A DNA stretch of 64,000 nt from Pseudomonas laurentiana (GTDB taxonomy: Bacteria > Pseudomonadota > Gammaproteobacteria > Pseudomonadales > Pseudomonadaceae): the NCBI RefSeq assembly GCF_014648275.1, contig NZ_BMQU01000005.1, positions 124,001 through 188,000 of the forward strand. The letters run 5' to 3'. The notes below the pieces were generated by a model. The model was not told where the DNA came from. It ran no database searches and worked only from the letters and a program-made list of their open reading frames with translations. Of this stretch, positions 1,124 to 56,607 are shown one piece after another (the first letter of the stretch is position 1; each line of letters starts with the position of its first letter). A program made the position numbers and the translations under genes.

Positions 1124-1189
1124 AATGTACTTCCTGTCTGACGTGCAGGATTCCATCTTGCCTATATCCGCGACTAAAGGCACGCCTGT

Positions 1190-2842: not shown

Positions 2843-2920
2843 CGGAGGCTCCTGACAGATCCAAACGTCACTGAGCTCAGTGAATCACGCGCCGCCCCCC
2901 TGTCAACGTGACAAAAGTGC

Positions 2921-4915: not shown

Positions 4916-5125
4916 ACAGCCCCAGCATGGTCTGCCCCGGTTGCGTCGTGTTCGCCTCCTTTCCTTTTGAGACGACGAAATCCGGCAGTGCCTGTTATCA
5001 GTATTGAGAGCACTCTAGCATAGCTGCCCGGGCTTATTAGACGCCACTTTAAATTTCAAAGAAAAGGCTCTATCTCAGGCATTACAGCCAAAACAACAGA
5101 CAATACCTGACCCCCGTGCCAAAAA

Positions 5126-5155
5126 TTCAACCGAGCAGGGGAAGACCCGTAAAAT
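5126..5155 (+). promoter_or_regulatory. Possible sigma-70 promoter for thiD-thiE-hemL
   Basis: TTCAAC (5126-5131) and TAAAAT (5150-5155) are separated by 18 nt, with the -10 box ending 25 nt before the thiD ATG. No thiamine pyrophosphate riboswitch core was recognised in the ladS-thiD gap (4916-5180), which otherwise holds AT-rich sequence and the ladS upstream region. Confidence 0.35.
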
Positions 5156-5180
5156 GCGTTTGGTGTTAAGCTCGCGCACC

Positions 5181-5978: not shown

Positions 5979-6014
5979 CGACTGGTTTCCGGTCACGGCC
6001 ACGAGGCTCAAGCA

Positions 6015-6641
6015 ATGAAGTTACGCGGTTTGTACGCCATTACGGACAGCCAGTTACTGGCCGGCCGGCTCTTGTCTCATGTAGAAGCCGCGCTGGATGG
6101 CGGGGTGACCTTGTTGCAGTACCGCGACAAGAGTGACGACGCTGCGCAACGGCTGCGCGAGGCAGAAGCGCTGGCCAGACTCTGCGAGCGCTACACAACC
6201 CGACTGATCATCAATGATGATGCCGAGTTGGCCGCACGCCTGGGTGTCGGCGTGCATCTGGGCCAGACCGACGGCCCGCTGACCCCGGCCCGCACACTGC
6301 TGGGGCGCCAGGCAATCATTGGCTCCACCTGCCACGCCCAGCTTGAGTTGGCTGAGCAGGCGGCACGCGAAGGCGCCAGCTATGTGGCCTTTGGTCGTTT
6401 CTTCAACTCCGTAACCAAACCCGGTGCGCCAGCCGCCAGCGTCGAACTGCTGGAACAGGCTCGCAGCCGGATCAAACTGCCGATCGCCGTGATCGGTGGC
6501 ATTACCCTGGACAATGCCGCACCGTTGGTCGCCCATGGCGCCGACCTGCTGGCCGTCATCCACGGGCTGTTTGGTGCCGACTGCGCGCAGGAAGTCACCC
6601 GCCGCGCCCGCGCCTTCAACGCCCTGTTCGAATCTGTTTGA
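6015..6641 (+). CDS. thiE: Thiamine-phosphate synthase
   Basis: Couples HMP diphosphate with thiazole phosphate to form thiamine phosphate. A TIM-barrel enzyme of 208 residues, normal for the family. Visible motifs are LLQYRDKS (diphosphate binding), [23 protein letters not shown], the loop [17 protein letters not shown] and the phosphate-binding end [10 protein letters not shown]. It lies between thiD and hemL; its TGA is 15 nt before the hemL ATG, so the three genes are probably cotranscribed. Confidence 0.94.
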
Positions 6642-6656
6642 TTGAGAGAGACCGTC

Positions 6657-7937
6657 ATGTCCCGTTCCGAAGCCCTGTTCGCCAATGCCCAGAAGCACAT
6701 CCCTGGTGGCGTGAACTCGCCTGTCCGCGCGTTCCGCAGCGTTGGCGGCACACCGCTGTTCTTCAAGCACGCCGAAGGCGCCTACGTTACCGATGAAGAC
6801 GACAAGCGCTATGTCGACTACGTCGGTTCCTGGGGGCCGATGATCCTCGGCCACAGCCACCCGGACGTGCTTGACTCGGTACGCAAGCAACTGGAGCACG
6901 GCCTGTCCTATGGCGCTCCGACCGCGATGGAAACCGAAATGGCCGATCTGGTCTGCTCGATCGTGCCATCGATGGAAATGGTCCGCATGGTCAGCTCCGG
7001 CACCGAGGCCACCATGAGCGCCATCCGTCTGGCCCGTGGCTACACCGGCCGCGACAGCATCATCAAGTTCGAGGGTTGCTACCACGGCCACTCCGACAGC
7101 CTGTTGGTAAAAGCCGGCTCCGGCCTGCTGAGCCAGGGCGTACCCAGCTCTGCCGGTGTACCCGCTGCTTTCGCCAAACATACGCTGACACTGCCGTTCA
7201 ACGACCTTGCCGCCGTCGAGAAGATGCTCAATGAAGTGGGCAAAGAAGTCGCCTGCATCATTGTCGAGCCTGTCGCCGGCAACATGAACTGCGTGCCGCC
7301 GGCCCCCGGTTTCCTGGAAGGCCTGCGCACACAGTGCGACAAGCACGGCGTGGTGCTGATTTTCGACGAAGTGATGACCGGCTTCCGTGTTGCCCTGGGC
7401 GGTGCGCAAGCCTATTACGGCGTTACCCCGGACCTGTCGACCTTCGGCAAGATCGTCGGCGGCGGCATGCCTGTCGGCTGCTTCGGTGGCAAGCGCGAAA
7501 TCATGTCGCAGATCGCCCCGCTGGGCCCTGTGTATCAAGCAGGCACATTGTCGGGCAACCCACTGGCCATGGCCGCTGGCTTGACCACACTGAAGCTGAT
7601 CAGCCGGCCTGGATTCCACGACGAACTGAGCGACTTCACCAGCCGCCTGCTCCAAGGGCTGCAGGAACGTGCCGATGCGGCAGGCGTACCGTTCGTCACC
7701 ACCCAAGCCGGCGGTATGTTCGGCCTGTACTTCAGCGCTGCCGATGACATCGTGACCTTCGACGACGTCATGTCCAGCGATGCCGAGCGCTTCAAGCGTT
7801 TCTTCCACCTGATGCTTGAAGGTGGCGTGTACCTGGCGCCAAGCGCGTTCGAGGCTGGCTTCACCTCTATCGCCCATGGCGAAGCCGAGCTGAAGATCAC
7901 CCTGGATGCGGCCGAGCGAGCATTCGCCAAGCTGTAA
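6657..7937 (+). CDS. hemL: Glutamate-1-semialdehyde 2,1-aminomutase
   Basis: A PLP enzyme converting glutamate-1-semialdehyde to 5-aminolevulinate, an early step of heme synthesis by the C5 route. 426 residues. Key blocks are [51 protein letters not shown] and the PLP-lysine segment [14 protein letters not shown]. The ATG at 6657 is preceded by GAGAGA. The thiD-thiE-hemL order is standard in Pseudomonas. Confidence 0.96.
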
Positions 7938-7945
7938 GTAGCTGC

Positions 7946-7974
7946 CTGTAGCCGCCGGTCTTGCCGGCGCTGTG
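7946..7974. repeat. REP-like palindromic element
   Basis: CTGTAG followed by CGCCGG-tcttg-CCGGCG (stem 7953-7958/7964-7969), placed 9 nt after the hemL stop. It shares the CTGTAG...CTTGCC layout with elements near 49651 and 57744. The rest of the 7938-8161 gap holds no recognised gene. Confidence 0.55.
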
Positions 7975-8161
7975 CCCGATGCGATGCCTGTGAGCACGCG
8001 TTTCAGCCAGTGCCCGCAAGGCCGACGATTGCAAATGGCAAGCGCCGGAAAGACCCTTCAAGCAGAAAATCGAGTAAAGACTTTGTAAGGTTGGCGCAGG
8101 TTATCCCATAATGTGCCACCAGACACATTGGCCGCAGCTTTGCAGAGGTAAGTCGATCCCC

Positions 8162-8710
8162 ATGAACCGCACCGGCCGCGCCCTTGCCCTGGGCTGCCTG
8201 TTGCTTCTTCAACCCCTGCTGGCTACAGCAGGCGGTAACTCGTTGCTGATTCCAGCAACCGGCCGCTGCACCCTCGATTCCCAGCCCGAAGACCTGGCAC
8301 AAGCGCTAGCAGACTGCCAACAAGCGGCAAAGGATGGGGATGCCCAGGCGCAATATGAGTTGGGTGAGTTCTACTACGTCGGCAAAAGCGCACCGCGCGA
8401 CCTGAGCAAGGCACTGAGCTACTTCGAGCAGGCGTCACTGCAAGGGCATGCCGAAGCACAGTACCGCTTGGGCACCATGTTTTTCCGCGGGGAAGGCGTG
8501 GCCGCCAACAACGTGCAGGCCTACATTGTGCTGAAGATGGCTGCAGTGAATGGCGCCGAAGATGCGCTGGACATGGCTGACGAGGTGTCGGCACAAATGC
8601 CGCGCGACGAGCTGGAGGTTGCCACTCAAGTACTGGGGCAGATCTTCCGCAAGTACCTGCTGGAACTGCAGAGCGCCGAAGGGCGCACGCCCTTCTCGCC
8701 ACTCCCCTGA
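8162..8710 (+). CDS. Exported Sel1-repeat protein
   Basis: A 182-residue protein with a cleavable signal peptide (MNRTGRALALGCLLLLQPLLATAG), so probably periplasmic or secreted. The middle carries Sel1/TPR-like repeats (DAQAQYELGEFYYVG, HAEAQYRLGTMFFRGEGV and a weaker third near YIVLKMAAVNGAEDALD). These form helical scaffolds that usually mediate protein contacts. The start at 8162 was chosen because it begins the signal peptide; an upstream in-frame ATG would place it after a non-hydrophobic lead. It faces the DUF1820 gene 18 nt away. Specific function unknown. Confidence 0.75.
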   Translation: MNRTGRALALGCLLLLQPLLATAGGNSLLIPATGRCTLDSQPEDLAQALADCQQAAKDGDAQAQYELGEFYYVGKSAPRDLSKALSYFEQASLQGHAEAQYRLGTMFFRGEGVAANNVQAYIVLKMAAVNGAEDALDMADEVSAQMPRDELEVATQVLGQIFRKYLLELQSAEGRTPFSPLP

Positions 8711-8728
8711 AGCGGAAGTGACGCCCGC

Positions 8729-9055
8729 TTACTTCTCGGGCATCGGCATTGGGAACGGCATTACGTTACTGACACCACGCGCCTCGCTGATCTTGGGCGT
8801 ACCCAGCCGCTCGACCTCATCGATACGCACGATCGAATGCATCGGCACGAAGCTGCGAACCACACCTTCAAACTGTGCCTTGAGCTTCTCTTCACTCGGA
8901 TCGACCACCACCTGGGTGCGCTCACCGAAGACAAACTCCTCCACCTCGAGAAAGCCCCACAGATCACTTTGATAGATCTGCTTGGCATACATCTCGAATA
9001 CCTGGCCCTGGTTTAGAAAAATCACTTTGTAGATCGGATCGGCGCGTTTGGTCAT
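8729..9055 (-). CDS. DUF1820 family protein
   Basis: A 108-residue protein starting MTKRADPIYKVIFLNQGQVFEMYA and continuing YQSDLWGFLEVEEFVFGERTQVVVDPSEEKLK. I recognise this as the DUF1820 family found beside miaB in pseudomonads. The soluble, acidic fold has no signal peptide, so it should be cytoplasmic. The function is not known. The frame is open upstream, but the ATG at 9055 begins the conserved part. It diverges from miaB. Confidence 0.78.
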   Translation of the reverse strand: MTKRADPIYKVIFLNQGQVFEMYAKQIYQSDLWGFLEVEEFVFGERTQVVVDPSEEKLKAQFEGVVRSFVPMHSIVRIDEVERLGTPKISEARGVSNVMPFPMPMPEK

Positions 9056-9185
9056 TTTCGGCGGGAACGAAGACAGGTGGTAAAGAGGACGCAAACTATA
9101 ACATACCCACCTGATCGACAATGCTAGGAACCGTCGACCACGCCCCTTATAATGCGCGGTTCTTTGAATTACCTGATGATCTCCC

Positions 9186-10514
9186 ATGGCCAAGAAGCTT
9201 TATATCGAAACCCACGGTTGCCAGATGAACGAGTATGACAGCTCGCGCATGGTCGATCTGCTGGGTGAACATCAAGCCCTGGAGGTCACGGCCCGGGCTG
9301 AAGACGCCGATGTGATCCTGCTCAACACCTGCTCAATCCGCGAGCGCGCGCAGGACAGGGTCTACTCCCAGCTTGGCCGCTGGCGTGAACTGAAAGAACA
9401 GAACCCTGAGATGGTCATCGCCGTCGGCGGCTGTGTTGCCAGCCAGGAAGGTGAATCGATCCGCAAGCGGGCACCCTACGTCGACGTGGTGTTCGGCCCG
9501 CAGACCCTGCACCGACTGCCCGAGATGATCGACGCTGCACGCGCAACCAAGCTGCCGCAGGTCGATATCTCGTTCCCGGAAATCGAAAAGTTCGACCACC
9601 TGCCGGAACCCCGTATCGACGGCCCTACCGCCTACGTGTCCGTCATGGAGGGTTGCAGCAAGTACTGCACGTTCTGCGTCGTGCCTTACACCCGCGGCGA
9701 AGAAGTCAGCCGTCCATTCGATGACGTGTTGGCCGAGGTCATTCACCTGGCCGAAAACGGCGTGCGTGAAATCACCCTGCTGGGGCAGAACGTCAACGGT
9801 TACCGTGGCCTGACCCACGACGGGCGCCTGGCCGACCTGGCCGAATTGATCCGCGTGGTTGCAGCGGTGGACGGTATCGGTCGCATCCGCTACACCACCT
9901 CGCACCCCCTGGAATTCTCCGACAGCCTGATCCAGGCGCACGCTGAAGTGCCGCAACTGGTCAAGCACCTGCACCTGCCGGTTCAATCGGGCTCGGACCG
10001 CGTATTGGCTGCCATGAAGCGCAACCACACCGTTCTTGAGTACAAGTCCAAGCTGCGCAAACTCAAAGCGGCGGTTCCGGATATCTGCATCAGCTCCGAC
10101 TTCATTGTCGGCTTCCCTGGCGAAACTGAAAAAGACTTCGAGCAGACCCTGAAACTGGTCACCGATGTCGGCTTCGACTTCTCCTACTCGTTCGTCTATA
10201 GCCAGCGCCCGGGCACCCCGGCCGCCGACCTGCCAGACGACACCCCGGAAGAACTCAAGAAGGAACGCCTGCAAACACTGCAGCATCGCCTCGACCATCA
10301 AGGCTTTGAAATCAGCCGACGCATGGTCGGGACCGTTCAGCGCATTCTGGTGACGGATTACTCGCGCCGAGACCCCGGACAACTGCAAGGGCGCACCGAA
10401 AATAACCGTATCGTCAACTTTCGCTGCGACAATCCGAAATTGATCGGCCAGTTCGTCGACGTGCAGATCGACGATGCGCGACCTCACTCGCTGTTCGGCT
10501 CGCTGCTACCGTAA
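9186..10514 (+). CDS. miaB: tRNA-2-methylthio-N6-dimethylallyladenosine synthase
   Basis: A radical-SAM methylthiotransferase that modifies A37 of tRNAs reading UNN codons. 442 residues: N-terminal MTTase domain with [20 protein letters not shown] and GGCVASQEG (auxiliary cluster cysteines); radical-SAM domain with the CxxxCxxC motif [16 protein letters not shown]-terminal TRAM domain ending LFGSLLP. A TATAAT box (9148-9153) lies 33 nt before the ATG. A perfect 8-bp stem follows the stop, before phoH. Confidence 0.96.
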
Positions 10515-10519
10515 AGGCA

Positions 10520-10549
10520 TGACCGGGTCCTGTACATCGGGCCCGGTCA
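10520..10549 (+). terminator. Hairpin between miaB and phoH
   Basis: TGACCGGG (10520-10527) pairs perfectly with CCCGGTCA (10542-10549) across a 14-nt loop, directly after the miaB stop. There is no proper T-run, so it may attenuate or stabilise 3' ends rather than terminate fully. Confidence 0.45.
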
Positions 10550-10638
10550 CCCTTGAACGTTTCAGCGCTTTCGCGCGTGAGCCACTGGGGTTATCCTTGA
10601 ATTCACTCTCATTGCCGTTGGGCGGCTAAAAAACAACC

Positions 10639-11640
10639 TTGAACGCACCCATAGAACCTCATCGTTTCATCCTCGAGCCCTTTGAGGCTCGCCGCTTCGC
10701 CAATCTGTGCGGGCAGTTCGACGAGCATCTGCGCCTCATCGAACAGCGCATGGCCATCGAAATCCGCAACCGCGGCAATCAATTCGAATTGATCGGCGAA
10801 CCCCAACTCACGTCTTCCGCCGAGCAACTGCTTCGACGCCTGTACCGCGAAACCAAAGCCACCGAGCTTTCGCCGGACATGGTTCACCTGTTCCTTCAGG
10901 AGTCGTCGCTGGAAGCCATGGAAAACCCGGCGGCCGCCGAACCGAGCGTGACCCTGCGCACGCGCAAGGGCAATATTCGCCCGCGCGGGCTTAACCAGCA
11001 GCGCTACGTCAAGGAAATCCTGGCGAACGACATCAACTTCGGCATTGGCCCGGCAGGTACGGGCAAGACCTACCTGGCTGTGGCTTGTGCCGTCGATGCG
11101 CTGGAACGTGAACAGGTGCGCCGCATTCTGCTGGTTCGCCCGGCGGTCGAAGCGGGCGAAAAGCTCGGCTTCCTGCCCGGCGACCTGGCTCAGAAAATCG
11201 ACCCGTACCTGCGACCGCTGTACGACGCCCTCTATGAAATGCTGGGGTTCGAACACGTCGCCAAGCTGATTGAGCGCCAGGTTATCGAGATCGCGCCACT
11301 GGCCTATATGCGCGGCCGCACCCTGAACAACAGCTTCATCATTCTCGACGAAAGCCAGAACACCACCGTCGAGCAGATGAAAATGTTCCTGACCCGCATC
11401 GGCTTCGGCTCGACGGCAGTGATTACCGGGGATATCACCCAGGTCGACCTGCCACGCGGCACCAAATCAGGGCTGGCGCACGTCATCGAGGTTCTGGACG
11501 GGGTACCCGGCATCAGCTTTACGCACTTCAAGCCCAAAGACGTTGTACGCCATCCGCTGGTGCAACGCATCGTCGAAGCCTACGAGCGATTCGACAGCAA
11601 GCAGCAGGACAAGCACGAAGGCAACCGTCACAATGGTTGA
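10639..11640 (+). CDS. phoH: PhoH-like ATPase (YbeZ)
   Basis: A P-loop ATPase of the PhoH family, linked to RNA metabolism and ribosome quality control with YbeY. 333 residues; Walker A GPAGTGKT, Walker [10 protein letters not shown], plus [16 protein letters not shown] and [11 protein letters not shown]. The start is a TTG followed by [13 protein letters not shown], as I recall for other pseudomonads; the nearest in-frame ATG would remove a conserved part. It is first gene of phoH-ybeY-corC-lnt, and its stop overlaps the ybeY start by 8 nt. Confidence 0.92.
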
Positions 11641-12127
11641 ACTCGACCTGCAACTGGCTACCGATGCCTTGGCCCCCGATGAAGCCGCCTTCCGTCGCTG
11701 GTGTGAGCTCGCCCTGCGCCAGCGCAGCGCCGACTCCGAACTGACCATTCGCCTGGTCGACGAAGCCGAAGGCCGCGAGCTGAACAACACCTATCGGCAC
11801 AAGGACTACGCCACCAACGTCTTGTCCTTCCCGGCCGATGTACCCGATGACATGCTCGACATTCCGCTGCTCGGCGACCTGGTGATCTGCGTCGCCGTGG
11901 TCGAGCGCGAGGCCGCCGAGCAAGGCAAGTCACTCGACGCCCACTGGGCGCATCTGGTCATCCACGGCTGCCTCCACCTGCTGGGCTACGACCACATCGA
12001 AGACGATGAGGCCGAAGAAATGGAAGCACTGGAACGAACGTTGCTTGCCGAATTGGGTCACCCTGACCCGTATGCCGACGACGAACACGATTTCCCCGAC
12101 ACCGATACCTGTAAGGATCACGAGTAA
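11633..12127 (+). CDS. ybeY: Endoribonuclease YbeY
   Basis: A single-strand-specific zinc endoribonuclease acting in 16S rRNA maturation and late 70S quality control. 164 residues. The zinc motif [11 protein letters not shown] and the conserved TNVLSFP segment are both present. The ATG overlaps the end of phoH by 8 nt, which implies translational coupling, and corC begins 5 nt after the stop. The acidic tail after the catalytic motif is typical for Pseudomonas. Confidence 0.94.
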
Positions 12128-12132
12128 CCGCC

Positions 12133-12972
12133 ATGAGCGAAGATCGATCGAGCAATGGGCAAAAGTCCTGGCTGGGCAAGCTGACCCAGGCTTTTGCCCA
12201 TGAGCCGAAAAACCGCCAGGAACTCCTGGAACTGCTGCGCGAAGCCCATCAGAACAAGCTGCTCGACAGCGAAGCACTGACCATCGTCGAAGGCGCAATC
12301 CAAGTCGCTGACCTGCAGGTGCGTGACATCATGGTCCCGCGCTCGCAGATGAGCAGCATCAAGGCGACCCAAACACCCCGCGAGTTCCTGCCAGCGGTGA
12401 TCGACGCTGCGCACTCGCGCTACCCGGTCGTGGGCGAAAGCCACGATGATGTGCTTGGCGTGTTGCTCGCCAAGGACCTGTTGCCGCTGATCCTCAAGGA
12501 GAACGGCGACCGTTTCAACATCAAGGACCTGCTGCGCCCGGCCACATTTGTACCCGAATCCAAGCGTCTGAACGTGCTGTTGCGTGAATTCCGCGCCAAC
12601 CACAACCACATGGCCATCGTCATCGACGAGTATGGCGGCGTCGCTGGCCTGGTGACCATCGAAGATGTGCTCGAACAGATCGTCGGCGACATCGAGGATG
12701 AGCATGACGTCGAGGAAGACAGCTACATCAAGCCGTTGCCGAGTGGCGACTTCCTGATCAAGGCCCTGACCCCCATCGAGAACTTCAACGAGTTCTTCGA
12801 CAGCGAGTTTTCCAACGACGAGTTCGATACCGTCGGTGGCTTGGTGATGAGCGCATTCGGGCACCTGCCCAAGCGTAACGAGACAACCGAAATCGGCCCC
12901 TACCGCTTCCGGGTTCTCAACGCCGACAGCCGCCGGATACACTTGCTGCGACTGACCCCCATCACCCGCTAA
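12133..12972 (+). CDS. corC: CBS/CorC-HlyC domain protein
   Basis: A cytoplasmic protein of the CorC/YbeX family, associated with magnesium/cobalt efflux or ribosome homeostasis. 279 residues: two CBS motifs (RDIMVPRSQM...SRYPVVGESHDDVLGVLLAKDLL and IKDLLRPATFVPESKRLN...AIVIDEYGGVAGLVTIEDV), then the C-terminal CorC_HlyC domain (DTVGGLVMSAFGHLPK). No transmembrane segments are visible. It sits between ybeY and lnt with short gaps, the same order as in E. coli. Confidence 0.93.
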   Translation: MSEDRSSNGQKSWLGKLTQAFAHEPKNRQELLELLREAHQNKLLDSEALTIVEGAIQVADLQVRDIMVPRSQMSSIKATQTPREFLPAVIDAAHSRYPVVGESHDDVLGVLLAKDLLPLILKENGDRFNIKDLLRPATFVPESKRLNVLLREFRANHNHMAIVIDEYGGVAGLVTIEDVLEQIVGDIEDEHDVEEDSYIKPLPSGDFLIKALTPIENFNEFFDSEFSNDEFDTVGGLVMSAFGHLPKRNETTEIGPYRFRVLNADSRRIHLLRLTPITR

Positions 12973-12980
12973 GGACAACC

Positions 12981-14498
12981 ATGCGTTGGATCACCCGCCC
13001 CGGCTGGCCCGGTAACCTGCTGGCCGTGGCGGCCGGCGCCATCACTACCCTGGCACTCGCGCCATTCAACATCTGGCCACTGGCACTGGTAACCCTGGCC
13101 TTGTTCTACCTTGGCCTGCGCGACCTTGGTCCGCGTCAGGCACTGGCCCGCGGCTGGTGCTACGGTTTTGGCGTGTTCGGCGCGGGCACCAGCTGGATCT
13201 ATGTCAGCATCCATACCTACGGCGGCGCCTCAGCGCTGCTGGCAGGCCTGCTGATGCTTGCCTTCATCGCTGCCATTGCCTTGTTCTTCGCCCTGCCTGC
13301 CTGGCTCTGGGCGCGCTGGATTCGACGCAATGAAGCACCACTGGCCGATGCCCTGGCGTTCGCCGCCCTCTGGCTGGCCCAGGAAGCCTTCCGTGGTTGG
13401 TTCCTGACGGGCTTCCCCTGGCTCTACGCCGGCTACAGCCAGCTTGACGGCCCCTTGGCCGGCCTGGCACCGCTGGGTGGGATGTGGCTGATCTCCTTCA
13501 GCCTGGCCCTGAGCGCCGCCTTGCTGTGCAACCTGAATCGCCTGCGTGAGCGCAAGGGCTTCCTGGTCACCGCGCTGGCCGTGCTGCTGGCACCCTGGAT
13601 CATCGGCATCGCACTCAAAGGCCATACCTGGACCCGCCCGGCGGGTGAGCCACTGAAAGTGGCAGCGATCCAGGGCAATATCGAGCAGTCCTTGAAATGG
13701 GATCCGGCCCAGCTCAACGCCCAGTTGGCGCTGTACCGTGACATGACCTTCAGTAGCAAACAGGCCGACTTGATTGTCTGGCCGGAAACCGCAGTACCCG
13801 TACTCAAAGAATCTGCCCAAGGCTACCTGGACATGATGGGCAGCTTCGCCAGCGACCGTCGTTCGGCGCTGATTACCGGCGTGCCCGTTCGAGAGGTGAC
13901 GCACAATCAACGGCGCTACTACAACGGCATTACCGTTACCGGCGAGGGCGACGGCACCTACCTGAAACAGAAACTGGTGCCTTTCGGTGAATACGTGCCA
14001 CTACAGGATATGCTGCGCGGGTTGATCACCTTCTTCGATCTGCCGATGTCAGACTTCGCTCGTGGCCCCGCAGACCAGACACTACTGCAGGCAAAGGGCT
14101 ACCAGATTGCGCCTTACATTTGCTACGAAGTGGTGTACCCGGAGTTCGCTGCCAGCCTTGCGGCCCGAAGCGACCTGCTGCTGACCATCAGTAACGACAC
14201 CTGGTTCGGCACCTCGATCGGCCCGCTGCAACACCTGCAAATGGCACAAATGCGCGCCCTTGAAGCAGGTCGCTGGATGATCCGTGCAACCAACAATGGC
14301 GTCACCGGCCTGATCGACCCCTTCGGCCGGATCACCGCGCAAATCCCGCAGTTCGAGCGTGGCATCCTGTACGGAGAAGTGGTTCCCATGCAGAAGCTCA
14401 CGCCGTACCTGAAATGGCGCTCCTGGCCGCTGGCAATGCTCAGCACGCTATTACTGGGCTGGGCATTGCTGGCCGGTCGGATTGCCAGGACCGTCTAA
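12981..14498 (+). CDS. lnt: Apolipoprotein N-acyltransferase
   Basis: An inner-membrane enzyme that adds the third acyl chain to the N-terminal cysteine of lipoproteins. 505 residues: about six N-terminal transmembrane helices (to about 200), then a nitrilase-like periplasmic domain with the triad context VWPETAVP (Glu), KQKLVPFGEY (Lys) and APYICYEVVYPE (Cys), and a last C-terminal helix. It is last in phoH-ybeY-corC-lnt. Several lipoproteins in this window (LptE, RlpA, SltB3, the MORN and SGNH proteins) would be its substrates. Its stop overlaps the convergent gene by 4 nt. Confidence 0.95.
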   Translation: MRWITRPGWPGNLLAVAAGAITTLALAPFNIWPLALVTLALFYLGLRDLGPRQALARGWCYGFGVFGAGTSWIYVSIHTYGGASALLAGLLMLAFIAAIALFFALPAWLWARWIRRNEAPLADALAFAALWLAQEAFRGWFLTGFPWLYAGYSQLDGPLAGLAPLGGMWLISFSLALSAALLCNLNRLRERKGFLVTALAVLLAPWIIGIALKGHTWTRPAGEPLKVAAIQGNIEQSLKWDPAQLNAQLALYRDMTFSSKQADLIVWPETAVPVLKESAQGYLDMMGSFASDRRSALITGVPVREVTHNQRRYYNGITVTGEGDGTYLKQKLVPFGEYVPLQDMLRGLITFFDLPMSDFARGPADQTLLQAKGYQIAPYICYEVVYPEFAASLAARSDLLLTISNDTWFGTSIGPLQHLQMAQMRALEAGRWMIRATNNGVTGLIDPFGRITAQIPQFERGILYGEVVPMQKLTPYLKWRSWPLAMLSTLLLGWALLAGRIARTV

Positions 14499-15256
14499 TT
14501 AAGCAAGCGATACGCGAGCAGACCAACGGCTTCATTGAGCAGTTGGCTGCTCTGCCAGAGCGATTTGTTTTCCGGCATCCAGCCACCGAACGGGCGCGCG
14601 TGATTGCGCCCCAAGTAGCCCACGGGTGCCGGCACTACGCTGAAACCAGCCTGCTCAAAACTCCAGCGTGCACGCTGCATGTGCCACGCCTGGGTTACCA
14701 GCACTACCCGCTTGTAGCCTTCCGGCAGCAGTAGCTCGGCGCTCATTTGAGCGTTCTCCCAGGTTGTACGGCTACGCTCTTCCTTCCAGCGCACCGACAC
14801 ACCGAAATCGCGCGCGAGCGAATCCGCCATCAACTGCGCCTCACTGGGCGGCGTGCCGTAATGCAAGCCTCCGCTAATGAGCAAAGGCAAACCGGAGGCC
14901 TTGGCTAATTGCGCCGCATAACGCATGCGCTCCAGGGCGAGGGCACTTGGCTGATCCTCAGCGCCCCATGCGGGATCATCACGCTCGCGGCCAGCCCCAA
15001 GCACGACGATGGCATCGGCACGCTCTGCGAGGCTCCCCCACTGGCCGTAAGCCAATGTGGGCTCACTCTCCAGCACGCGTGCGGCCTGTTGCACGACGAT
15101 CGGCAGACTCATCAGCCACAGCCCACCCAAGCCCAACGCGAAGCATAGACAGGCCGTACGAGGCCAGGTGTTACGCAACCACCAGGCCGCGATCAACAGT
15201 AGAAACAACGCGCCCGGCGGCATGACTAATTGCTTGATGAAATAACGAAACGGCAT
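14495..15256 (-). CDS. YdcF/ElyC family (DUF218) membrane protein
   Basis: 253 residues: two N-terminal transmembrane helices (about 10-30 and 35-58) and a DUF218 domain with ADAIVVLGAGRERDD, LLISGG and VVLVTQAWHMQRARWSF. E. coli ElyC and YdcF belong here, and ElyC affects envelope/lipid-carrier biogenesis. The start at 15256 is preceded by a clear GGAGG site 7 nt upstream, which decides it over longer in-frame options. It is convergent with lnt, with a 4 nt overlap. The exact reaction is unknown. Confidence 0.8.
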   Translation of the reverse strand: MPFRYFIKQLVMPPGALFLLLIAAWWLRNTWPRTACLCFALGLGGLWLMSLPIVVQQAARVLESEPTLAYGQWGSLAERADAIVVLGAGRERDDPAWGAEDQPSALALERMRYAAQLAKASGLPLLISGGLHYGTPPSEAQLMADSLARDFGVSVRWKEERSRTTWENAQMSAELLLPEGYKRVVLVTQAWHMQRARWSFEQAGFSVVPAPVGYLGRNHARPFGGWMPENKSLWQSSQLLNEAVGLLAYRLLN

Positions 15257-15371
15257 CGGCACCTCCATGGATGCGCGAAGCCTAAGAAAATCGGCACCTG
15301 ACAACAATAGCCAAGTGCCGATCATGAGAAGATTCAATGGCCAGGTCGGATTGCCTGAAAGGCCTGCTCGG

Positions 15372-15686
15372 TTACTTGAAATGCAACGCTCTGGACTTTG
15401 TCATGGTTGCAGAACGCGCCTTGTCTTTAAGCCAGACCACTCTGCCAACAGGTGCTTCAGGCTGCTGAAGCGTATCGATATGTGCGCTGTTGCGCTCTGG
15501 ACGCGATGCCAGGTAGGCCTTGATCACTTCAAACTCGGCGTGGCTCAACCCACGCAATTCCAATTCGGCAGGCATCTCATCACGCAGCCGAACAGAGGCT
15601 CTGGCGACATCCAGTGCCAGCCCCAACCGATCGATCAAACGCTCGTAAAGCTCTGGCTCTAATGCTTGTAGCGGCGACTCACCCAT
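15372..15686 (-). CDS. Conserved hypothetical protein
   Basis: 104 residues, cytoplasmic, no signal peptide or membrane segment. The N-terminal half is helical (LQALEPELYERLIDRLGLAL) and the C-terminal part is basic (WLKDKARSATMTKSRALHFK). I know a similar short protein upstream of leuS in other pseudomonads but no named domain. It diverges from leuS across a 233-nt gap. Confidence 0.55.
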   Translation of the reverse strand: MGESPLQALEPELYERLIDRLGLALDVARASVRLRDEMPAELELRGLSHAEFEVIKAYLASRPERNSAHIDTLQQPEAPVGRVVWLKDKARSATMTKSRALHFK

Positions 15687-15853
15687 CCGTTCACCTCATT
15701 TGAGATAGAAATACCGCCCCCAAAGATGAGCTTAGCGGTACTCACAAAAGCAGCGAGGCGCCACGACCAACGGCCCGCAGCCAGTCTGACGATGCAATCA
15801 GGGTTTCCCTCGATAGAGACGGGTCATGTATGCTACTGCGTTCATTATATTGA

Positions 15854-18526
<2,673 letters not shown>

Positions 18527-20667: not shown

Positions 20668-21993
20668 ATGCCTTTTTGCCTTTCCCGCCGTTGGCAACCC
20701 CGCCAACTGATCGCTGCCTCCAGCCTCATCCTGCTTGTCGCCTGCGCGGAAAAACCGACCGCCGCCGATGCGCTGCCGCTAGCACCGACACAACCTGCTC
20801 CTGTTGCAACCCAGCCAACTGCCGTCACCGATCCGATCGACGATGTGCAACCGCTGCAGACCTTCGCCCAATGGCAAGCCAGCTTCCGCCAGCAAGCCCT
20901 GCAGGCCGGTATCAATCCGGCAACCTTTGACCGCGCCTTTTTTGATATCACCCCTGACATGAGTGTGATCAAGGCCGACCGCAGCCAACCCGAATTCACC
21001 CGCCCCGTCTGGGAGTACCTCGACGGCGCCGTTTCACCTGTACGTGTTCGCAAGGGCCAGGCACTGCTCAACCAGAATGCCGAGTTGCTGACACGCATCG
21101 AGCAACGCTATGGCGTCGACCGCACCGCACTGGTGTCCGTCTGGGGCATGGAAAGTAACTTCGGCCAGTTCCAAGGCAGCAAATCGGTGATCCGCTCGCT
21201 CGCCACCCTGGCCTACGAAGGCCGTCGCCCGGCCTTTGCACAGGCCCAACTGCTCGCGGCCCTGCAGATCCTGCAGAACGGCGATATCCAGCCTGAGGCC
21301 ATGCTGGGGTCATGGGCCGGCGCCATGGGCCAGACCCAGTTCATCCCGACGACCTACAACACCCACGCCGTTGACTTCGACGGTGATGGTCGCCGTGACA
21401 TCTGGAACAGTACTGCCGATGCCCTGGCCTCAACCGCCCATTACCTGCAGAGCTCAGGCTGGAAACGGGGTGAACCCTGGGGTTTTGAAGTCGCTCTGAA
21501 ACCTGGCTTCGACTACTGGCTAGCAGACGGTTCTCAGCGCAAGACCGTCGCTGAATGGCTGAAACTGGGCCTGCAACTCCCGCCAGGGGTGCAGGTACCC
21601 GCAGGTAGCGAACAACTGTCTGCAGCCCTGCTGCTGCCCGCCGGCGCTCGCGGCCCGGCATTCCTGGTACTGGACAACTTCCGGGCCATCCTCAAGTACA
21701 ACAACTCGTCATCATATGCCCTGGCCGTCAGCATGCTGGCCGAGCGATTCGACGGCTCTGGCTTTATCCGCGGCGACTGGCCAAAAGATGATCTGCCGCT
21801 GAGCCGCAGTGAGCGCATGGAACTGCAGAACCTGCTCAGTGCCCGTAACTACGACGCAGGCAGTGCCGATGGCATCATCGGGGCCAATACCCGCAAGGCC
21901 ATCCGTAGCGCACAGCAAGCGCTGGGCTGGCCGGCAGATGGCTATCCGACCCATAAGCTGCTGGACAGCCTGCGCAACCAGCAAGCACGCTAG
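20668..21993 (+). CDS. SltB3-like lytic murein transglycosylase lipoprotein
   Basis: Cleaves the MurNAc-GlcNAc bond to leave 1,6-anhydro ends. 441 residues: signal peptide with lipobox LLVAC, MltB-type catalytic domain (SLT_2, about 75-355; WGMESNFG holds the catalytic Glu, then GSWAGAMGQTQFIPTTY and DFDGDGRRDIW), and a C-terminal peptidoglycan-binding domain (about 372-435; LSRSERMELQNLLSARNYDAG). P. aeruginosa has an SltB3 at the equivalent locus. A second family member, sltB1, lies 4.5 kb away on the other strand. Confidence 0.88.
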   Translation: MPFCLSRRWQPRQLIAASSLILLVACAEKPTAADALPLAPTQPAPVATQPTAVTDPIDDVQPLQTFAQWQASFRQQALQAGINPATFDRAFFDITPDMSVIKADRSQPEFTRPVWEYLDGAVSPVRVRKGQALLNQNAELLTRIEQRYGVDRTALVSVWGMESNFGQFQGSKSVIRSLATLAYEGRRPAFAQAQLLAALQILQNGDIQPEAMLGSWAGAMGQTQFIPTTYNTHAVDFDGDGRRDIWNSTADALASTAHYLQSSGWKRGEPWGFEVALKPGFDYWLADGSQRKTVAEWLKLGLQLPPGVQVPAGSEQLSAALLLPAGARGPAFLVLDNFRAILKYNNSSSYALAVSMLAERFDGSGFIRGDWPKDDLPLSRSERMELQNLLSARNYDAGSADGIIGANTRKAIRSAQQALGWPADGYPTHKLLDSLRNQQAR

Positions 21994-26465: not shown

Positions 26466-27475
26466 TATTTGGCGCCTCGTGCTTGAACCAGCAGGTCCGA
26501 AAGTTGATGTACCGCCATGGCGTACATCACGCTGCGGTTGTAGCGCGTGATCGCATAGAAGTTCTTGAGGCCCATCCAGTACTCAGGACCGTTGTCGCCT
26601 TCAAGCCGAAAAGCGGTGACTGGCAGATCATCGCGCAGTACATCATGGCTTGACCAGCCCAGTGCCCGCAACTCTCCAACCGTTCGCACAGGCTCGATTC
26701 CGGGCGTCAGCCCTTCGTCCACGCGCTCGCCGCGAACCATGGCGCGGCTGACCACGCCCTCGCCGGCCACCCAACCGTGGCGCTTGAAGTAACTGGCGAC
26801 ACTGCCGATGGCATCGTCCGGATCGTTCCAGATATTGATATGACCGTCGCCGTCGAAATCCACGGCATACGCCCTAAAGCTGCTCGGCATGAACTGCGGC
26901 AGCCCCATGGCGCCGGCGTAGGAACCCTTGAGGGTCAGCGGATCGACCTGCTCCTCACGGGCCAGCAACAGGAACTCGCGCAGCTCCTTACGGAAAAACT
27001 CGGCACGCGGCGGGTAATCGAAGGCTAGCGTCGACAAGGCATCAATGACCCGATAGTTGCCTGTATTGCGGCCAAAGAAGGTCTCGACACCAATAATCGC
27101 CACGATCACCTGGGCAGGTACACCGTACTCCTGCTCGGCACGGGCCAGAGCGACCTCGTGTTGACGCCAGAAATCCACGCCACGGGCGACACGCGCATCG
27201 GTCAGGAACATCGGGCGATATTCCTTCCAGGGTTTTACCCGCTCAGCAGGTCGGGAAATGGCATCGAGAATCGATTGTTTGCGCTCGACCTCACGAAACA
27301 CGCCGATCAACTGCTCACCAGCAAAACCGTAGTCGCGGGTCATTTCGCCGACAAACTCGGCCACCTGAGGCGAGCCGTCATAGTCGCCAGCCACAACCTG
27401 TTGCGCCGAGCCGAGCAGGCCGAGCAGGCCAACCCAAGGCGCGCAACGAGCCGCCCAGCTACGCATTGCTTGCAT
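26465..27475 (-). CDS. sltB1: Lytic murein transglycosylase B (SltB1/MltB)
   Basis: 336 residues: signal peptide (cleavage near VVA-GD), then the MltB catalytic domain with IIGVETFFGRNTGNY (catalytic Glu), GSYAGAMGLPQFMPSSF and DFDGDGHINIW. No lipobox cysteine is visible, unlike E. coli MltB, so it is likely a soluble periplasmic form. The start at 27475 was chosen for an AAGGTGA site 10 nt upstream; an ATG three codons later is an alternative. It lies between rodA and rlpA, as in other pseudomonads. Confidence 0.92.
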   Translation of the reverse strand: MQAMRSWAARCAPWVGLLGLLGSAQQVVAGDYDGSPQVAEFVGEMTRDYGFAGEQLIGVFREVERKQSILDAISRPAERVKPWKEYRPMFLTDARVARGVDFWRQHEVALARAEQEYGVPAQVIVAIIGVETFFGRNTGNYRVIDALSTLAFDYPPRAEFFRKELREFLLLAREEQVDPLTLKGSYAGAMGLPQFMPSSFRAYAVDFDGDGHINIWNDPDDAIGSVASYFKRHGWVAGEGVVSRAMVRGERVDEGLTPGIEPVRTVGELRALGWSSHDVLRDDLPVTAFRLEGDNGPEYWMGLKNFYAITRYNRSVMYAMAVHQLSDLLVQARGAK

Positions 27476-52652: not shown

Positions 52653-53861
52653 TCACTGCAACCCGAGCTGCCCACGCAGGAAGTCGTACAGACCAGACGC
52701 ACTTTTGCGGTAACCCTCGGCGGATAAATGCACCAGATCGTTACGGGCCAGGCCTTCAGCCTGCCAGTTGACGATCGAGCAGGGGCCACCCATGTACGCC
52801 TGCCAATCCCAGAACAGGCCGTTGAACTGCTTGGCGGCCTGACGCTGGATACGGATGATCTGGGCCAACGGTTGCGGCTGACGGGCGGCACAGGTACGCG
52901 CCTTGCGCTGCTTGATCGAGTCCGGTGGGCCGACCAACAGAATGGCGGCACGCGGCATGTTGCGGCGCAACTCGGCCAAGGTCTGGTTCAGATGGTCACG
53001 GTACTGGTTCAAGTCGAGCGTGTCGTCGAAGGCTTCGTTGGTACCGTAAGCCAGAATGATCAAATCCGGACGCAGCGCCTTGAAACTCTCCTGCCAGCCG
53101 GGCTGCCACTTATCCACAACATCCAGCCGCGCGCCGTTGATCCCCAGGGCGGAATAGGTCACACCGGCATTCTTCTGGCCCTGAATGTACCAGCCGCCCA
53201 GCGCCACATCCTTGCGGTTGCTCAAGGTGAGGTCCAACGGCAAGCTGACACTGTTAAACACCGGGCTGAAACGCCACTGCCCATTGGTTGCCGCCAGCAG
53301 ACGCCGGTTCTGGGTAGTGCCATCGCGGGCGAGCAATGTCGTGTTGGCCGTTGAGGTGTAAAGGGCCGACACGCGGTAACGCTGGGTCGTGGGCTCACGC
53401 GCTTCGATGCGTACGGCTGCGTTGGCCGTCAGCGGTAATGACAGGTAACCGCCCAAGGGAAACTGGGTGTTTTGCTGGTTCCGCGCCGAAACCAGCTCCC
53501 ACTGCCGCTTGGCCGCTTTGAGGATCACCGTCTCATAGCGCGTCCCTGGTACCGGCGAGCCTGCGACGAGGCCGATACCGCCATCACCATACTGGGCCTG
53601 TAACAGGCGACGCATTTCCCCGCTGAACAGGTCGGCCGCAGTGTGTGAGTCACCCAGTTGAACGATGTTGATGGGGGTGCGGTTTGCGCTGCGGAACTTG
53701 CCCGCCAACAGTGCCAGATTGCCGTTTGCAGGGGCCTGAGCCGCTTTTTGAGGCACCTGAAGTGGACGCGCTGCCGGCCCATTGACCGCCGCGACCGGGC
53801 TACAGCCCGGCAACGCGCAGATCAGTGCCACCAGGGCCAGGATGTTGTGCAATCGACGCAT
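52653..53861 (-). CDS. SGNH hydrolase lipoprotein, Ape1-like O-acetyl esterase candidate
   Basis: 402 residues. Lipobox LPGC gives a lipidated Cys20. SGNH block I is QLGDSHTAADLFSG (Ser72), then a beta-rich insert of about 100 residues (130-230), then block II GINGA, block III YGTNEAFDD and block V DLVHLS (Asp375, His378). An SGNH fold split by a carbohydrate-binding-like insert, in a lipoprotein, is the layout of Neisseria Ape1, which removes O-acetyl groups from MurNAc. It is last in a three-gene operon, 1 nt after the DUF459 gene. Confidence 0.75.
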   Translation of the reverse strand: MRRLHNILALVALICALPGCSPVAAVNGPAARPLQVPQKAAQAPANGNLALLAGKFRSANRTPINIVQLGDSHTAADLFSGEMRRLLQAQYGDGGIGLVAGSPVPGTRYETVILKAAKRQWELVSARNQQNTQFPLGGYLSLPLTANAAVRIEAREPTTQRYRVSALYTSTANTTLLARDGTTQNRRLLAATNGQWRFSPVFNSVSLPLDLTLSNRKDVALGGWYIQGQKNAGVTYSALGINGARLDVVDKWQPGWQESFKALRPDLIILAYGTNEAFDDTLDLNQYRDHLNQTLAELRRNMPRAAILLVGPPDSIKQRKARTCAARQPQPLAQIIRIQRQAAKQFNGLFWDWQAYMGGPCSIVNWQAEGLARNDLVHLSAEGYRKSASGLYDFLRGQLGLQ

Positions 53862-53862
53862 T

Positions 53863-54975
53863 TCAGTGTCCCGTCACGGTCAAGCCTGGGAAGGTGATCA
53901 TTGACAACACTTGCTGTGCAATGAGCTTCTGCCCGGTGGGGGTAAAGTGAATGCCGTCATCAACTCGGGTCTTGACCCGTTTGCCCTGGTCATCCTGCAA
54001 GGTATAGGAAAACTCATCAGCCTTGTAACCCAACACGCCGTTGGCAGAGACGTAATGCTGCTGGTAGCGCTTGGTCTGGGTTTCATAGAGCGTGCTCAAG
54101 TAGGCCATGGCACTGGACAGCTTGGTTTTCTGCATGTTCGGCGGGCCAACCCAAATCACTTGCACATCATGCGCGCGCGCCTGCTCAAGAATCGAGTCGA
54201 TACGCTGCCGGTACTGCTCCTCCCACTCGGCGGTTTTAAAGCGCAGGAACGGCTTACCTTTGGCGACCGGCATGTCCCAAGGATCATTCGGCCCAAGGAA
54301 CACGACCATCAGGCGAATGTTCGGCTGGCTCTGCAAGGTATTGGCCACCGTCTGTGGCCAGTTGAAAAAGCCCGGATAGGCAAGCCCGGTGCTCTGCTTG
54401 CTGAGGTTGACGCTCTTGATCTGGTAGCGCTTGTGCAAGGTATTGGCCAGGTGTGGCGCCACCCCTTGCATCAGCGAATCGCCGACCAGAAAGACTTCAT
54501 CGCCCGCCGACAGGGTCACCGGCATGGGTTGTATTGGCTGCGGAATGGGCGCAGGCAATGGCGTCGCCGCCACCTTGGCCGACTTGGCGACCTCATGCAC
54601 GGGGGCAACATGCACCGGGGCCGCATGCTTGCCGTCCAGCTTCACCGGCACGACAGGCGCAGAGGCAGGCATCGTCATTGTTTCACTAGCGGGAGCCTGC
54701 GCCACCATTGCTGGTGGATCAGATTGGGTCAGGCTTTCGATAACGCTGTCGCGGGCATTGCCCATGGCCTGAGTCAGGTTGCTTCCCATCCGCCAGGCCG
54801 AACTCTGACCCAGTAATGGCAGCTCACAGCCCTGGTGGTACTTCTGCTCGCAATAAAGGCGGATCGAGTCCTGGTTGAACCAGAACAACAGCAAGGTCGT
54901 CACCACAATGGCATACAGTACCCTGGCCGCGCCCACCTGCGTCTCGAACAGCTTGCTGGCACTAGAAACTTGCAT
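53863..54975 (-). CDS. Membrane-anchored DUF459/SGNH protein, PatB-like O-acetyltransferase candidate
   Basis: 370 residues: a short cytoplasmic start, one transmembrane helix (about 18-34), a periplasmic stalk with a Pro/Ala/His-rich stretch (85-153), and an SGNH/DUF459 domain with GDSLMQG (Ser167), FLGPNDPWDM and DDGIHFTPTG (Asp340, His343). The triad is complete. In Neisseria, PatB of this type transfers acetate to MurNAc after PatA exports it. The start at 54975 overlaps the MBOAT gene by 14 nt; the longer open frame upstream is a shadow of that gene. Confidence 0.78.
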   Translation of the reverse strand: MQVSSASKLFETQVGAARVLYAIVVTTLLLFWFNQDSIRLYCEQKYHQGCELPLLGQSSAWRMGSNLTQAMGNARDSVIESLTQSDPPAMVAQAPASETMTMPASAPVVPVKLDGKHAAPVHVAPVHEVAKSAKVAATPLPAPIPQPIQPMPVTLSAGDEVFLVGDSLMQGVAPHLANTLHKRYQIKSVNLSKQSTGLAYPGFFNWPQTVANTLQSQPNIRLMVVFLGPNDPWDMPVAKGKPFLRFKTAEWEEQYRQRIDSILEQARAHDVQVIWVGPPNMQKTKLSSAMAYLSTLYETQTKRYQQHYVSANGVLGYKADEFSYTLQDDQGKRVKTRVDDGIHFTPTGQKLIAQQVLSMITFPGLTVTGH

Positions 54976-56377
54976 AGATGAACCCCGGAACGCCCGATTG
55001 CGATGCAAAGATGACCAAGGAAATAAATACCCCCAATGGCACGGGGTACAACTGCCAAGGCAAGCGCGTGGTCGCGGCGAACAACTGGCGCAGACGCTCA
55101 ACCAGTTGCCGGTAGACAGCGATGTACAGCACGCAGGCCAGCAGCAAGGCACCTGTCGGCGAGAACAACGCTTCCAGACGCAAGCCAGCGATACCGGCAA
55201 GCATGTCCTTGGCATCATCGAGGCTGGCACAACGGAAGAAAATCCAGGCAAAAGCAACATAGTGGAAGGTCAGCAATCGCGCGGCGATCCCCGCGCCAGG
55301 CCAACGCATGGGCTGTGGCAACCAATAGGTCGACGCCTTGTACAGCGCCAACCCCAGACCGTGCAGCGCGCCCCAGATAATGAAATTGATGCTCGCGCCA
55401 TGCCAAAGCCCGGAGATCAGCATGGCTAGCAGCATGTTCAGGTTGCCGCGCCAGACACCCTGACGGTTACCGCCCAACGGGATGTACACGTAGTCGCGGA
55501 TAAAGGTCGACAGGCTGATGTGCCAGCGGCCCCAGAATTCCTTCAGGTTGTTCGCGGCATAGGGCGCATTGAAGTTGTCCGGCAAACGGAAGCCCAACAA
55601 CAAGGCAATACCTGTTACCAGGTTGGTGTAGCCACTGAAGTTGAAGTAGATCAGAAAGCTGTAGCCATAGACGCTGAGCAGAATCTGCTCAGCCGAGTAG
55701 CTGCTCGGTGTCTCGAAGACCGGGTCAACCCACTCACTGGCCAGCCAGGCGCTGAAGAAGAACAGCTTCACCACCGCTAATGCAATCAGCCCCAACGCGC
55801 GTTGCGGTTCCAGCACCTGACGCATCTGCCCGGCCTGGATCTGCGGCAACATGTGCGCGGCACGGTTCACCGGCCCAGCAATCAGGCTCGGGAAGAACGC
55901 CAGGTACAGGGCCAGGTCAAGCACAGGAGCGGGAGCCATCTCGCGACGGTTGATCGATACCAGGTAGCTGACCGAATGGAAGGTATAGAAGGACAGGCCA
56001 ATAGGCAGCAGGACTTCCAGAATGGGCAGCGACACGTCGAGCCCGGCACTGGCCAGCGCCGACTGAACGCCACCGACGAAGAACTCCTGGTACTTGAACA
56101 GGTAGAAACACCCCAGCACCAGCAGCGCAACCAGCCCGTAACTGAAGCGTCGTCCCGGATACCGCGCCCCCAGTAACCCCAGCAGATAGACCAGTGCGGT
56201 GTATCCCAACAGGATATAAAGAGAGTTCAGACTGAAGCTGGCGACAAGGCCATAACTGGCGGCCAGCAGCATGGCGTTCTGCAAGCGAACGCTCCAGCAG
56301 AGGCTCCAGTAGATAGCGAAAAACAGGATGAAGCAGAGGCCGAACTCGATCGAAAGGAAGCTCACAACGTAGTCCAT
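54962..56377 (-). CDS. MBOAT O-acyltransferase, PatA/AlgI-like
   Basis: 471 residues with about eleven transmembrane helices. MBOAT/AlgI signatures: FWGRWHISLSTFIRDYVYIPLGGNR (281-305) and SGLWHGASINFIIWGALHG with the invariant His326. It moves acetyl groups across the inner membrane for O-acetylation of a periplasmic glycan. It is first in the operon with the two SGNH genes; divergent from xseB. There are no alginate (algF, algJ) or cellulose (wss/bcs) genes in the window, so the acceptor is more likely peptidoglycan; that is an inference. Confidence 0.85.
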   Translation of the reverse strand: MDYVVSFLSIEFGLCFILFFAIYWSLCWSVRLQNAMLLAASYGLVASFSLNSLYILLGYTALVYLLGLLGARYPGRRFSYGLVALLVLGCFYLFKYQEFFVGGVQSALASAGLDVSLPILEVLLPIGLSFYTFHSVSYLVSINRREMAPAPVLDLALYLAFFPSLIAGPVNRAAHMLPQIQAGQMRQVLEPQRALGLIALAVVKLFFFSAWLASEWVDPVFETPSSYSAEQILLSVYGYSFLIYFNFSGYTNLVTGIALLLGFRLPDNFNAPYAANNLKEFWGRWHISLSTFIRDYVYIPLGGNRQGVWRGNLNMLLAMLISGLWHGASINFIIWGALHGLGLALYKASTYWLPQPMRWPGAGIAARLLTFHYVAFAWIFFRCASLDDAKDMLAGIAGLRLEALFSPTGALLLACVLYIAVYRQLVERLRQLFAATTRLPWQLYPVPLGVFISLVIFASQSGVPGFIYASF

Positions 56378-56607
56378 TACGCGACATCAGGAAGGGAGGG
56401 CCTTGCCGGGCAACGCCACAGCGCAAAGCGGCGGCAATTATGGCAGAGAGCCACAAGCCCTCACAATGACAGGCTCGCAGAAAAAGCAAGATAGTGGACA
56501 AAGGCTTTATGCAACAGAATGCGACGAAAGATCATCGGCACTGATTTGCTCCCCCTGCCCTGCTCTGCTAGTGTCGCGCCGTTTAAACCGCCACAGAGAC
56601 AGCCGCC

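Follow-up and report, generated by a model that had tools for sequence, protein, structure and literature searches.

Does a member of Pseudomonas encode the means to O-acetylate its own peptidoglycan? The question is raised by three minus-strand genes of Pseudomonas laurentiana, running from 56377 to 52653 in a 64,000-nucleotide stretch of contig NZ_BMQU01000005.1 (positions 124,001 to 188,000; hereafter the window), that encode an MBOAT acyltransferase, a DUF459 protein of the SGNH family, and an SGNH esterase lipoprotein. A sequence-only reading had likened them in composition and order to patA, patB, and ape1 of Neisseria and proposed that they act on peptidoglycan. Its gene boundaries, overlaps, and motifs proved right on rereading of the open reading frames, and tests of protein family, gene order, and mechanism residues support both the likeness and the proposal. 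Judged from sequence, the trio is an O-acetylpeptidoglycan (OAP) operon of the Ape1a type, and it very likely directs peptidoglycan O-acetylation. Papers are cited by PMC identifier.

All three genes lie on one strand in the order patA-patB-ape1, with the ATG of patB 14 nt inside patA and ape1 starting 1 nt past the patB stop. The mechanical open reading frame of patB has 465 residues; the length of 370 used here is counted from the ATG at 54975. Ape1a-type OAP clusters have the same strict order on one strand, given as MBOAT, ape2, ape1a (PMC1199599), where ape2 has since been renamed patB (PMC6174289). With E-values to 2e-67 and a conserved gene order, the matches are far stronger than chance would give.

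Residue conservation was followed through relatives in named genomes, a collection from which the window's own or near-identical records may be absent. The best 80 of 155 relatives comprise 54 Pseudomonas-side loci and 26 enteric loci from Providencia, Photorhabdus, Xenorhabdus, Budvicia, and Leminorella. Three of the 54 are labeled otherwise (Pantoea sp. Cy-639, a Paucimonas metagenome-assembled genome, and gamma proteobacterium L18) and were grouped by tree or place. Residue counts and trees use 52 of the 54, L097 and L134 (contig cut) being excluded; in a single PatB row, three columns read X.

PatA is reported to acetylate the Tyr of its own C-terminal FxYxxF peptide, for which a conserved His is required, and the shuttle hexapeptide that carries the acetyl group is FIYANF in the gonococcus and FIYSSF in C. 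jejuni (PMC12148441). The window protein has both the MBOAT His326 and a C-terminal FxYxxF with Tyr468. The His, the Tyr, and both motif Phe residues are invariant in 52/52 Pseudomonas-side, 26/26 enteric, one gonococcal, and two plasmid homologs. The motif is unable to single out PatA by itself, because other bacterial MBOAT proteins also carry it.

PatB offers a finer test. The window protein matches PDB entries 7trr and 7tjb at about 5e-59 and 8tlb at 4.5e-39; these are the gonococcal and C. jejuni PatB, respectively (PMC12148441). All seven active-site positions of gonococcal PatB that were checked are conserved: Ser133, Ser161, Asn196, Leu250, Asp302, Ile304, and His305 align to Ser167, Ser195, Asn230, Leu286, Asp340, Ile342, and His343. 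Window PatB, a DUF459 protein, has the Ser-Asp-His triad and the block III Asn, and it also has the block II Ser (Ser161 in the gonococcus) and the hydrophobic wall (Leu250 and Ile304). Only position 342 varies among the 52 Pseudomonas-side proteins, with Val in 3. PatB accepts an acetyl-Tyr peptide as donor, and it is the block II Ser or Asn, in place of Gly, together with the hydrophobic wall, that distinguishes transferases from esterases (PMC12148441); DUF459 is described as a peptidoglycan O-acetyltransferase family (PMC9487903). The protein is predicted to be held in the membrane by one N-terminal helix.

The third product had been described as an SGNH lipoprotein of 402 residues with a beta-rich insert, and that insert is the Pfam domain Ape1_N (2.9e-18, residues 94-209); the protein also matches GDSL_2 (4.1e-13). 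It is an exported SGNH esterase with an inserted Ape1_N (CBM35-like) domain, its lipobox being read from the sequence. PDB entry 4k3u matches residues 63-396 at 1.5e-54, or at 2.3e-81 with a profile of 21 sequences. The name that the search gives for 4k3u is no more specific than GDSL-like family protein; we take the entry to be the meningococcal Ape1. This would fit the NmApe1 structure mentioned in PMC9487903. Ser72, Asn275, Asp375, and His378 are invariant in 52 Pseudomonas-side, 26 enteric, the gonococcal, and two plasmid Ape1 proteins, and in three orphan Ape1 proteins taken up below.

Among known systems, the patA-patB-ape1 genes of Neisseria gonorrhoeae and N. meningitidis have the same content, order, active-site residues, FIYxxF shuttle, and inserted Ape1 domain, and Neisseria PatB has the same block II Ser and hydrophobic wall. 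Identities over aligned parts are 36.8% for PatA (residues 3-471, against N. gonorrhoeae PatA, L174), 38.3% for PatB, and 34.7% for Ape1; the chromosomal surroundings differ, and the region before the catalytic Ser of window PatB is 34 residues longer than in the gonococcus (Ser167 versus Ser133). The nearest clusters outside Pseudomonas among the best 80 of 155 relatives are the enteric OAP clusters (PatA 47-53%), where all three genes occur at 26/26 loci.

Several observations weigh against this assignment. Window PatB scores 303 bits against the NCBIfam PatB equivalog NF045704, below its cut-off of 580, and is classed here by its features and not under that equivalog. Scores for P. protegens (299), a Citrobacter plasmid (296), Providencia alcalifaciens (288), Budvicia aquatica (285), and Photorhabdus akhurstii (277) are in a similar range, each a little lower than that of window PatB, and a trimmed piece of gonococcal PatB, at 574 bits, also falls below. 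Since Providencia, Photorhabdus, and the trimmed gonococcal piece all miss it, the cut-off appears to be set close to Neisseria; Providencia and Photorhabdus are included in a review's list of OAP species (PMC6174289). By sequence, window PatA finds only DltB-type relatives in the PDB. Three genomes (L088 to L090) encode Ape1 with no strong PatB match genome-wide and no patA in the 17 kb around, and a strict patA-patB-ape1 partnership does not predict them. Finally, two trios lie near cellulose-type acetylation genes. Locus L080 has its own pair of MBOAT and ALGX-type genes about 1.5 kb upstream of the trio, with a RES/Xre toxin-antitoxin between, and at L068 the trio stands between genes that we presume to be curli-like and a gene that we presume to be WssF-like, the latter about 3.6 kb away.

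A D-alanylation (Dlt) system was also considered for the window MBOAT and rejected, as the protein scores 146 bits against TIGR04091, whose cut-off is 375.

The loci L080 and L068 bear on the proposal that the trio adds acetyl groups to, or removes them from, some other envelope polymer (exopolysaccharide, cellulose, or O-antigen) and not peptidoglycan. Pairs of MBOAT and SGNH proteins do so elsewhere, on alginate and cellulose (PMC12148441), and the two loci raised our estimate for this proposal by a trifle. It nonetheless stays very improbable. PatB belongs to DUF459, described as the peptidoglycan O-acetyltransferase family (PMC9487903), and has no match to ALGX, the family of the SGNH partners encoded with the alginate and L080 MBOAT genes; the Ape1_N domain is present in Ape1; the commonest neighbors of the trio are housekeeping genes, ispA at 29 and ilvD at 12 of the 48 loci compared in the genus; and the alginate and L080 clusters possess acetylation genes of their own.

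The alginate cluster can be followed in the window's own genome, which has two MBOAT matches. The second, on another contig (G000:C15, L091), lies among genes for GDP-mannose/UDP-glucose dehydrogenase, alginate export, two ALGX-type proteins, alginate lyase, and a beta-helix protein. Alginate acetylation is accounted for there, because this other MBOAT sits in the alginate cluster with ALGX-type partners. The cluster resembles the trio in joining an MBOAT protein to SGNH-like partners and in the C-terminal shuttle motif, FLYFQF. It differs in its ALGX-type partners and in the alginate-export and lyase genes around them; its MBOAT protein is 33% identical to window PatA (residues 33-348), and the proteins read there include no Ape1-like one. 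Acetylation of alginate by the window trio, in the manner of algI/J/X, was therefore rejected: alginate genes form a cluster elsewhere in the genome that includes an MBOAT and ALGX-type genes, and the SGNH proteins of the window have no ALGX match. The L080 operon of cellulose type (wss type), which we take from the look of its genes to be a cellulose operon, likewise has an MBOAT ending in FLYFQF and an ALGX-type SGNH partner and is separate from the trio. The sequence-only reading had stated that no alginate or cellulose acetylation genes are near; the window holds no second MBOAT match, and it was not scanned as a whole for other polysaccharide genes.

As an observation apart, the MBOAT and ALGX-type genes of the alginate cluster directly follow the alginate-export gene and precede genes for AlgX-CBM, alginate lyase, and beta-helix proteins, an order that appears rearranged relative to that of P. 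aeruginosa.

Table 1. Positions of the trio, of other features in the window, and of loci compared with it.
Feature	Sequence	Position	Strand	Evidence or remark
patA: MBOAT acyltransferase, 471 aa	window	54962..56377	-	Pfam MBOAT 1e-21; His326 in WHG; FIYASF C-terminus (Tyr468)
patB: SGNH/DUF459 protein, 370 aa	window	53863..54975	-	DUF459 2.3e-67; Ser167 (GDSLMQG), Ser195 (block II), Asn230, Leu286, Asp340, Ile342, His343
ape1: SGNH esterase lipoprotein with inserted Ape1_N, 402 aa	window	52653..53861	-	lipobox LPGC Cys20; GDSH Ser72; Asn275, Asp375, His378
predicted sigma-70-like promoter	window	56437..56466	-	TTGTGA-18-CATAAT; 5' of patA, divergent from xseB-ispA-dxs
lytic transglycosylase (SLT_2 match)	window	20863-21744	+	
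lytic transglycosylase (SLT_2 match)	window	26495-27370	-	
orphan ape1	L088 (G158)	7872-9050		ilvD place
orphan ape1	L089 (G178)	7878-9182		ilvD place
orphan ape1	L090 (G214)	7565-8869		ilvD place
MBOAT, ALGX-type, and RES/Xre genes directly upstream of trio	L080 (G181)	1953-5903		
trio locus at fifth place	L068 (G149)	1-16288		
alginate cluster	L091	3056-11754		
patA-patB-ape1 on plasmid NZ_CP134684.1	L175	3611-7286		
PatB match on plasmid CP077416.1	L176	5001-6065		

If the trio is an OAP operon, His326 of PatA would pass acetyl from cytoplasmic acetyl-CoA to Tyr468 of the C-terminal FIYASF at the periplasmic face, Ser167 of PatB would receive it and hand it on to peptidoglycan, at the C6 hydroxyl of MurNAc, and the lipoprotein Ape1 would take it off again. 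An acetyl group so placed would keep lytic transglycosylases from carrying out their 1,6-anhydro reaction and would block lysozyme too; the operon would therefore set where and when the wall is cut. We consider control of lytic transglycosylases the likelier main role, ahead of lysozyme resistance. Reviews stress the former for Gram-negative bacteria and give the latter as the other effect (PMC6174289, PMC6783866), so of the functions guessed in the sequence-only reading, resistance to lysozyme has less in its favor. In Zymomonas, a patA deletion did away with O-acetylated muropeptides and made the cells less resilient to salt (PMC13101528). The two lytic transglycosylases reported for the window are present, as SLT_2 matches; SLT_2 matches number two in the whole genome, both within the window, and SLT matches four. 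Their nearness is meaningless by itself, because both lie at least 25 kb from the trio.

A main role in resistance to the lysozyme of hosts or rivals, in place of control over the cell's own transglycosylases, would be compatible with an OAP operon, and we regard it as unlikely but worth some weight. Among named carriers of the trio are P. entomophila and P. protegens; Photorhabdus, Xenorhabdus, and Providencia are among its enteric bearers, and we presume all of them to be associated with insects. Lysozyme is blocked by O-acetyl MurNAc (PMC6174289), and text mining ties the Ape1_N domain to infection of humans (PMC12746109). Against such a role stand the emphasis of the reviews, the Zymomonas phenotype, which is one of salt resilience (PMC13101528), and the retention of lysozyme inhibitors: MliC is found in 46/46 trio genomes and 326/353 others, and Ivy in 39/46 (one weak, 7e-4) and 275/353, with trio members assigned by eye and kinship left uncorrected. 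The window genome itself has MliC and no Ivy match. A trade-off between the trio and lysozyme inhibitors, considered as an explanation, left no sign in these counts, uncorrected for kinship as they are, and the trio is not a stand-in for the inhibitors.

The sequence-only reading had applied its proposal to this strain. The cluster is not peculiar to it. Of 399 genomes sampled in the genus, 49 contain Ape1_N above its cut-off, and 46 of these 49, with none besides, have a strong DUF459 match (E < 1e-60). Both patB and ape1 occur in 46/399 genomes and patA in 45, the remaining locus (L085) being cut by the contig end before patA. Besides the window, 48 genus loci were compared: 44 of the 45 trio loci have all three genes in order, the 45th is L085, and L088 to L090 have ape1 only. 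The closest of the best 80 of 155 named-genome relatives is P. defluvii (PatA 97.8%, PatB 92.9%, Ape1 98.2%), and named carriers also include P. chlororaphis and P. mosselii. A class-wide Ape1_N search of 369 genomes found only the window genome above cut-off, plus one weak match; this sampling is sparse, because enteric carriers do occur among the named-genome relatives.

A few loci depart from the common form. The patA match of L097 (P. aegrilactucae) stops at residue 337 and continues in another frame, and the ape1 open reading frame of L063 (G108) ends early, at 289 aa. Contigs L115 (Pantoea sp. Cy-639) and L133 (the Paucimonas sp. metagenome-assembled genome) have a Pseudomonas-type trio next to ispA, and the tree places them within Pseudomonas; their labels are probably wrong.

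So patchy a distribution (46/399) could also mean that the operon is silent or induced only under stress, leaving peptidoglycan unacetylated in ordinary culture. Agrobacterium offers a precedent, with Ape-like genes, minimal O-acetylation, and a suggested induction by signals (PMC1199599). We think a silent or stress-bound operon improbable: active-site residues are invariant in 52/52 Pseudomonas-side homologs, and the predicted sigma-70-like promoter 5' of patA is conserved at the window's place, its stretch CTCTGCCATAAT being retained at 90% or more in an alignment of 35 upstream regions (the window plus 34 loci at the same place).

In the genus the trio occupies at least five chromosomal places. 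Neighbors at the 48 genus loci are ispA (29/48), ilvD with a HAD-type gene (12/48, the three orphans included), an aldehyde-dehydrogenase-like gene (4/48), and a copper amine oxidase gene (1/48, L080); these are absent at 2/48, L085 (contig-cut, with rtcB) and L068, which represents a fifth place. The 54 named Pseudomonas-side loci divide as 35, 13, 3, and 2 over the first four places, L134 being contig-cut. In a tree of the three concatenated proteins with 66 rows, all Pseudomonas-side rows form one branch side against 13 outside rows, which include 10 of the 26 enteric loci. Each of the four places likewise makes up one branch side, so that five labels take four changes, the minimum, and the trio has therefore stayed put within each clade. 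That it is a curiosity of one strain was rejected, with 46/399 genomes carrying it and places that correspond to clades of 35, 13, 3, and 2 rows, each one branch side. Given the long outgroup branches, we are unsure of the ultimate origin of the trio.

Plasmids also carry it. A mobilizable IncFIB/IncFII plasmid of Citrobacter portucalensis (L175) has a complete patA-patB-ape1 set, a wall-modification kit on a mobile element, with DUF2138, DUF1175, and alpha-2-macroglobulin genes a short distance (several genes) away, and an unannotated plasmid of Acinetobacter junii (L176) encodes PatA, PatB, and Ape1, with PatA 36.5% identical to that of the window. Two PLSDB entries, NZ_CP119142.1 and NZ_CP119140.1, are 2.17-Mb N. 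gonorrhoeae "plasmids" and evidently chromosomes. A plasmid origin of the window copy was considered and is unsupported, the plasmid copies being distant (PatA 41% for L175 and 37% for L176).

The orphan Ape1 proteins form a clade of their own in the free tree, and their genes lie at the ilvD place, which in other species is occupied by the trio. Their inclusion in the ilvD-place clade was tried: the free tree keeps them apart, yet a tree joining them to that clade is not rejected by the approximately unbiased (AU) test (p 0.15; 61 rows, L175 and L176 excluded), so that they may descend from an ilvD-place trio. The usual lipobox is absent in L089 and L090, and L088 has a possible one. One could extend this to a broader history, in which the trio was inserted at no fewer than five sites in the chromosome and then stayed at one site per clade; peptidoglycan O-acetylation is widespread but overlooked in a minority of pseudomonads; and L088 to L090 lost the acetyltransferase pair but kept an esterase with intact residues, lacking the usual lipobox in two of the three, whose substrate would now be acetylated glycans or wall material not of the cell's own making. 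Taken as a whole, we rate that history as doubtful, with little probability behind it.

Clusters of this kind are already known in other Gram-negative bacteria, and what is new is the taxon, Pseudomonas. The statement that no such cluster has been described in the genus met no contradiction in the open-licence literature searched, a scope outside which most subscription papers lie. In the available parts of these texts, the species table of OAP clusters in a 2018 review is without any Pseudomonas, and P. aeruginosa is said not to O-acetylate its peptidoglycan (PMC6174289); Pseudomonas is named in PMC1199599 only for AlgI, alginate, and references; two papers on P. aeruginosa muropeptides report no O-acetylation (PMC6719521, PMC9239049); and PMC5077204, PMC12632261, PMC4148444, and PMC10302187 are silent on such a cluster in the genus. 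In PMC9558356, P. protegens CHA0 comes up in connection with an O-antigen AT3-SGNH gene, a different system, and the available part of PMC9239112 tabulates a peptidoglycan O-acetyltransferase next to rows that look Bacillus-like.

Such a trio is at odds with how the genus is usually pictured, and the matter can be tested directly. If it works, about 1 in 9 sampled genomes of the genus (46/399) would have a wall chemistry unlike that of the model species P. aeruginosa. For these bacteria it would matter to autolysis and salt tolerance, and wherever lytic transglycosylases, lysozyme, or phage lysins are concerned. The purpose of the modification could then be studied in non-pathogenic species, some of them carriers of the trio and others not.

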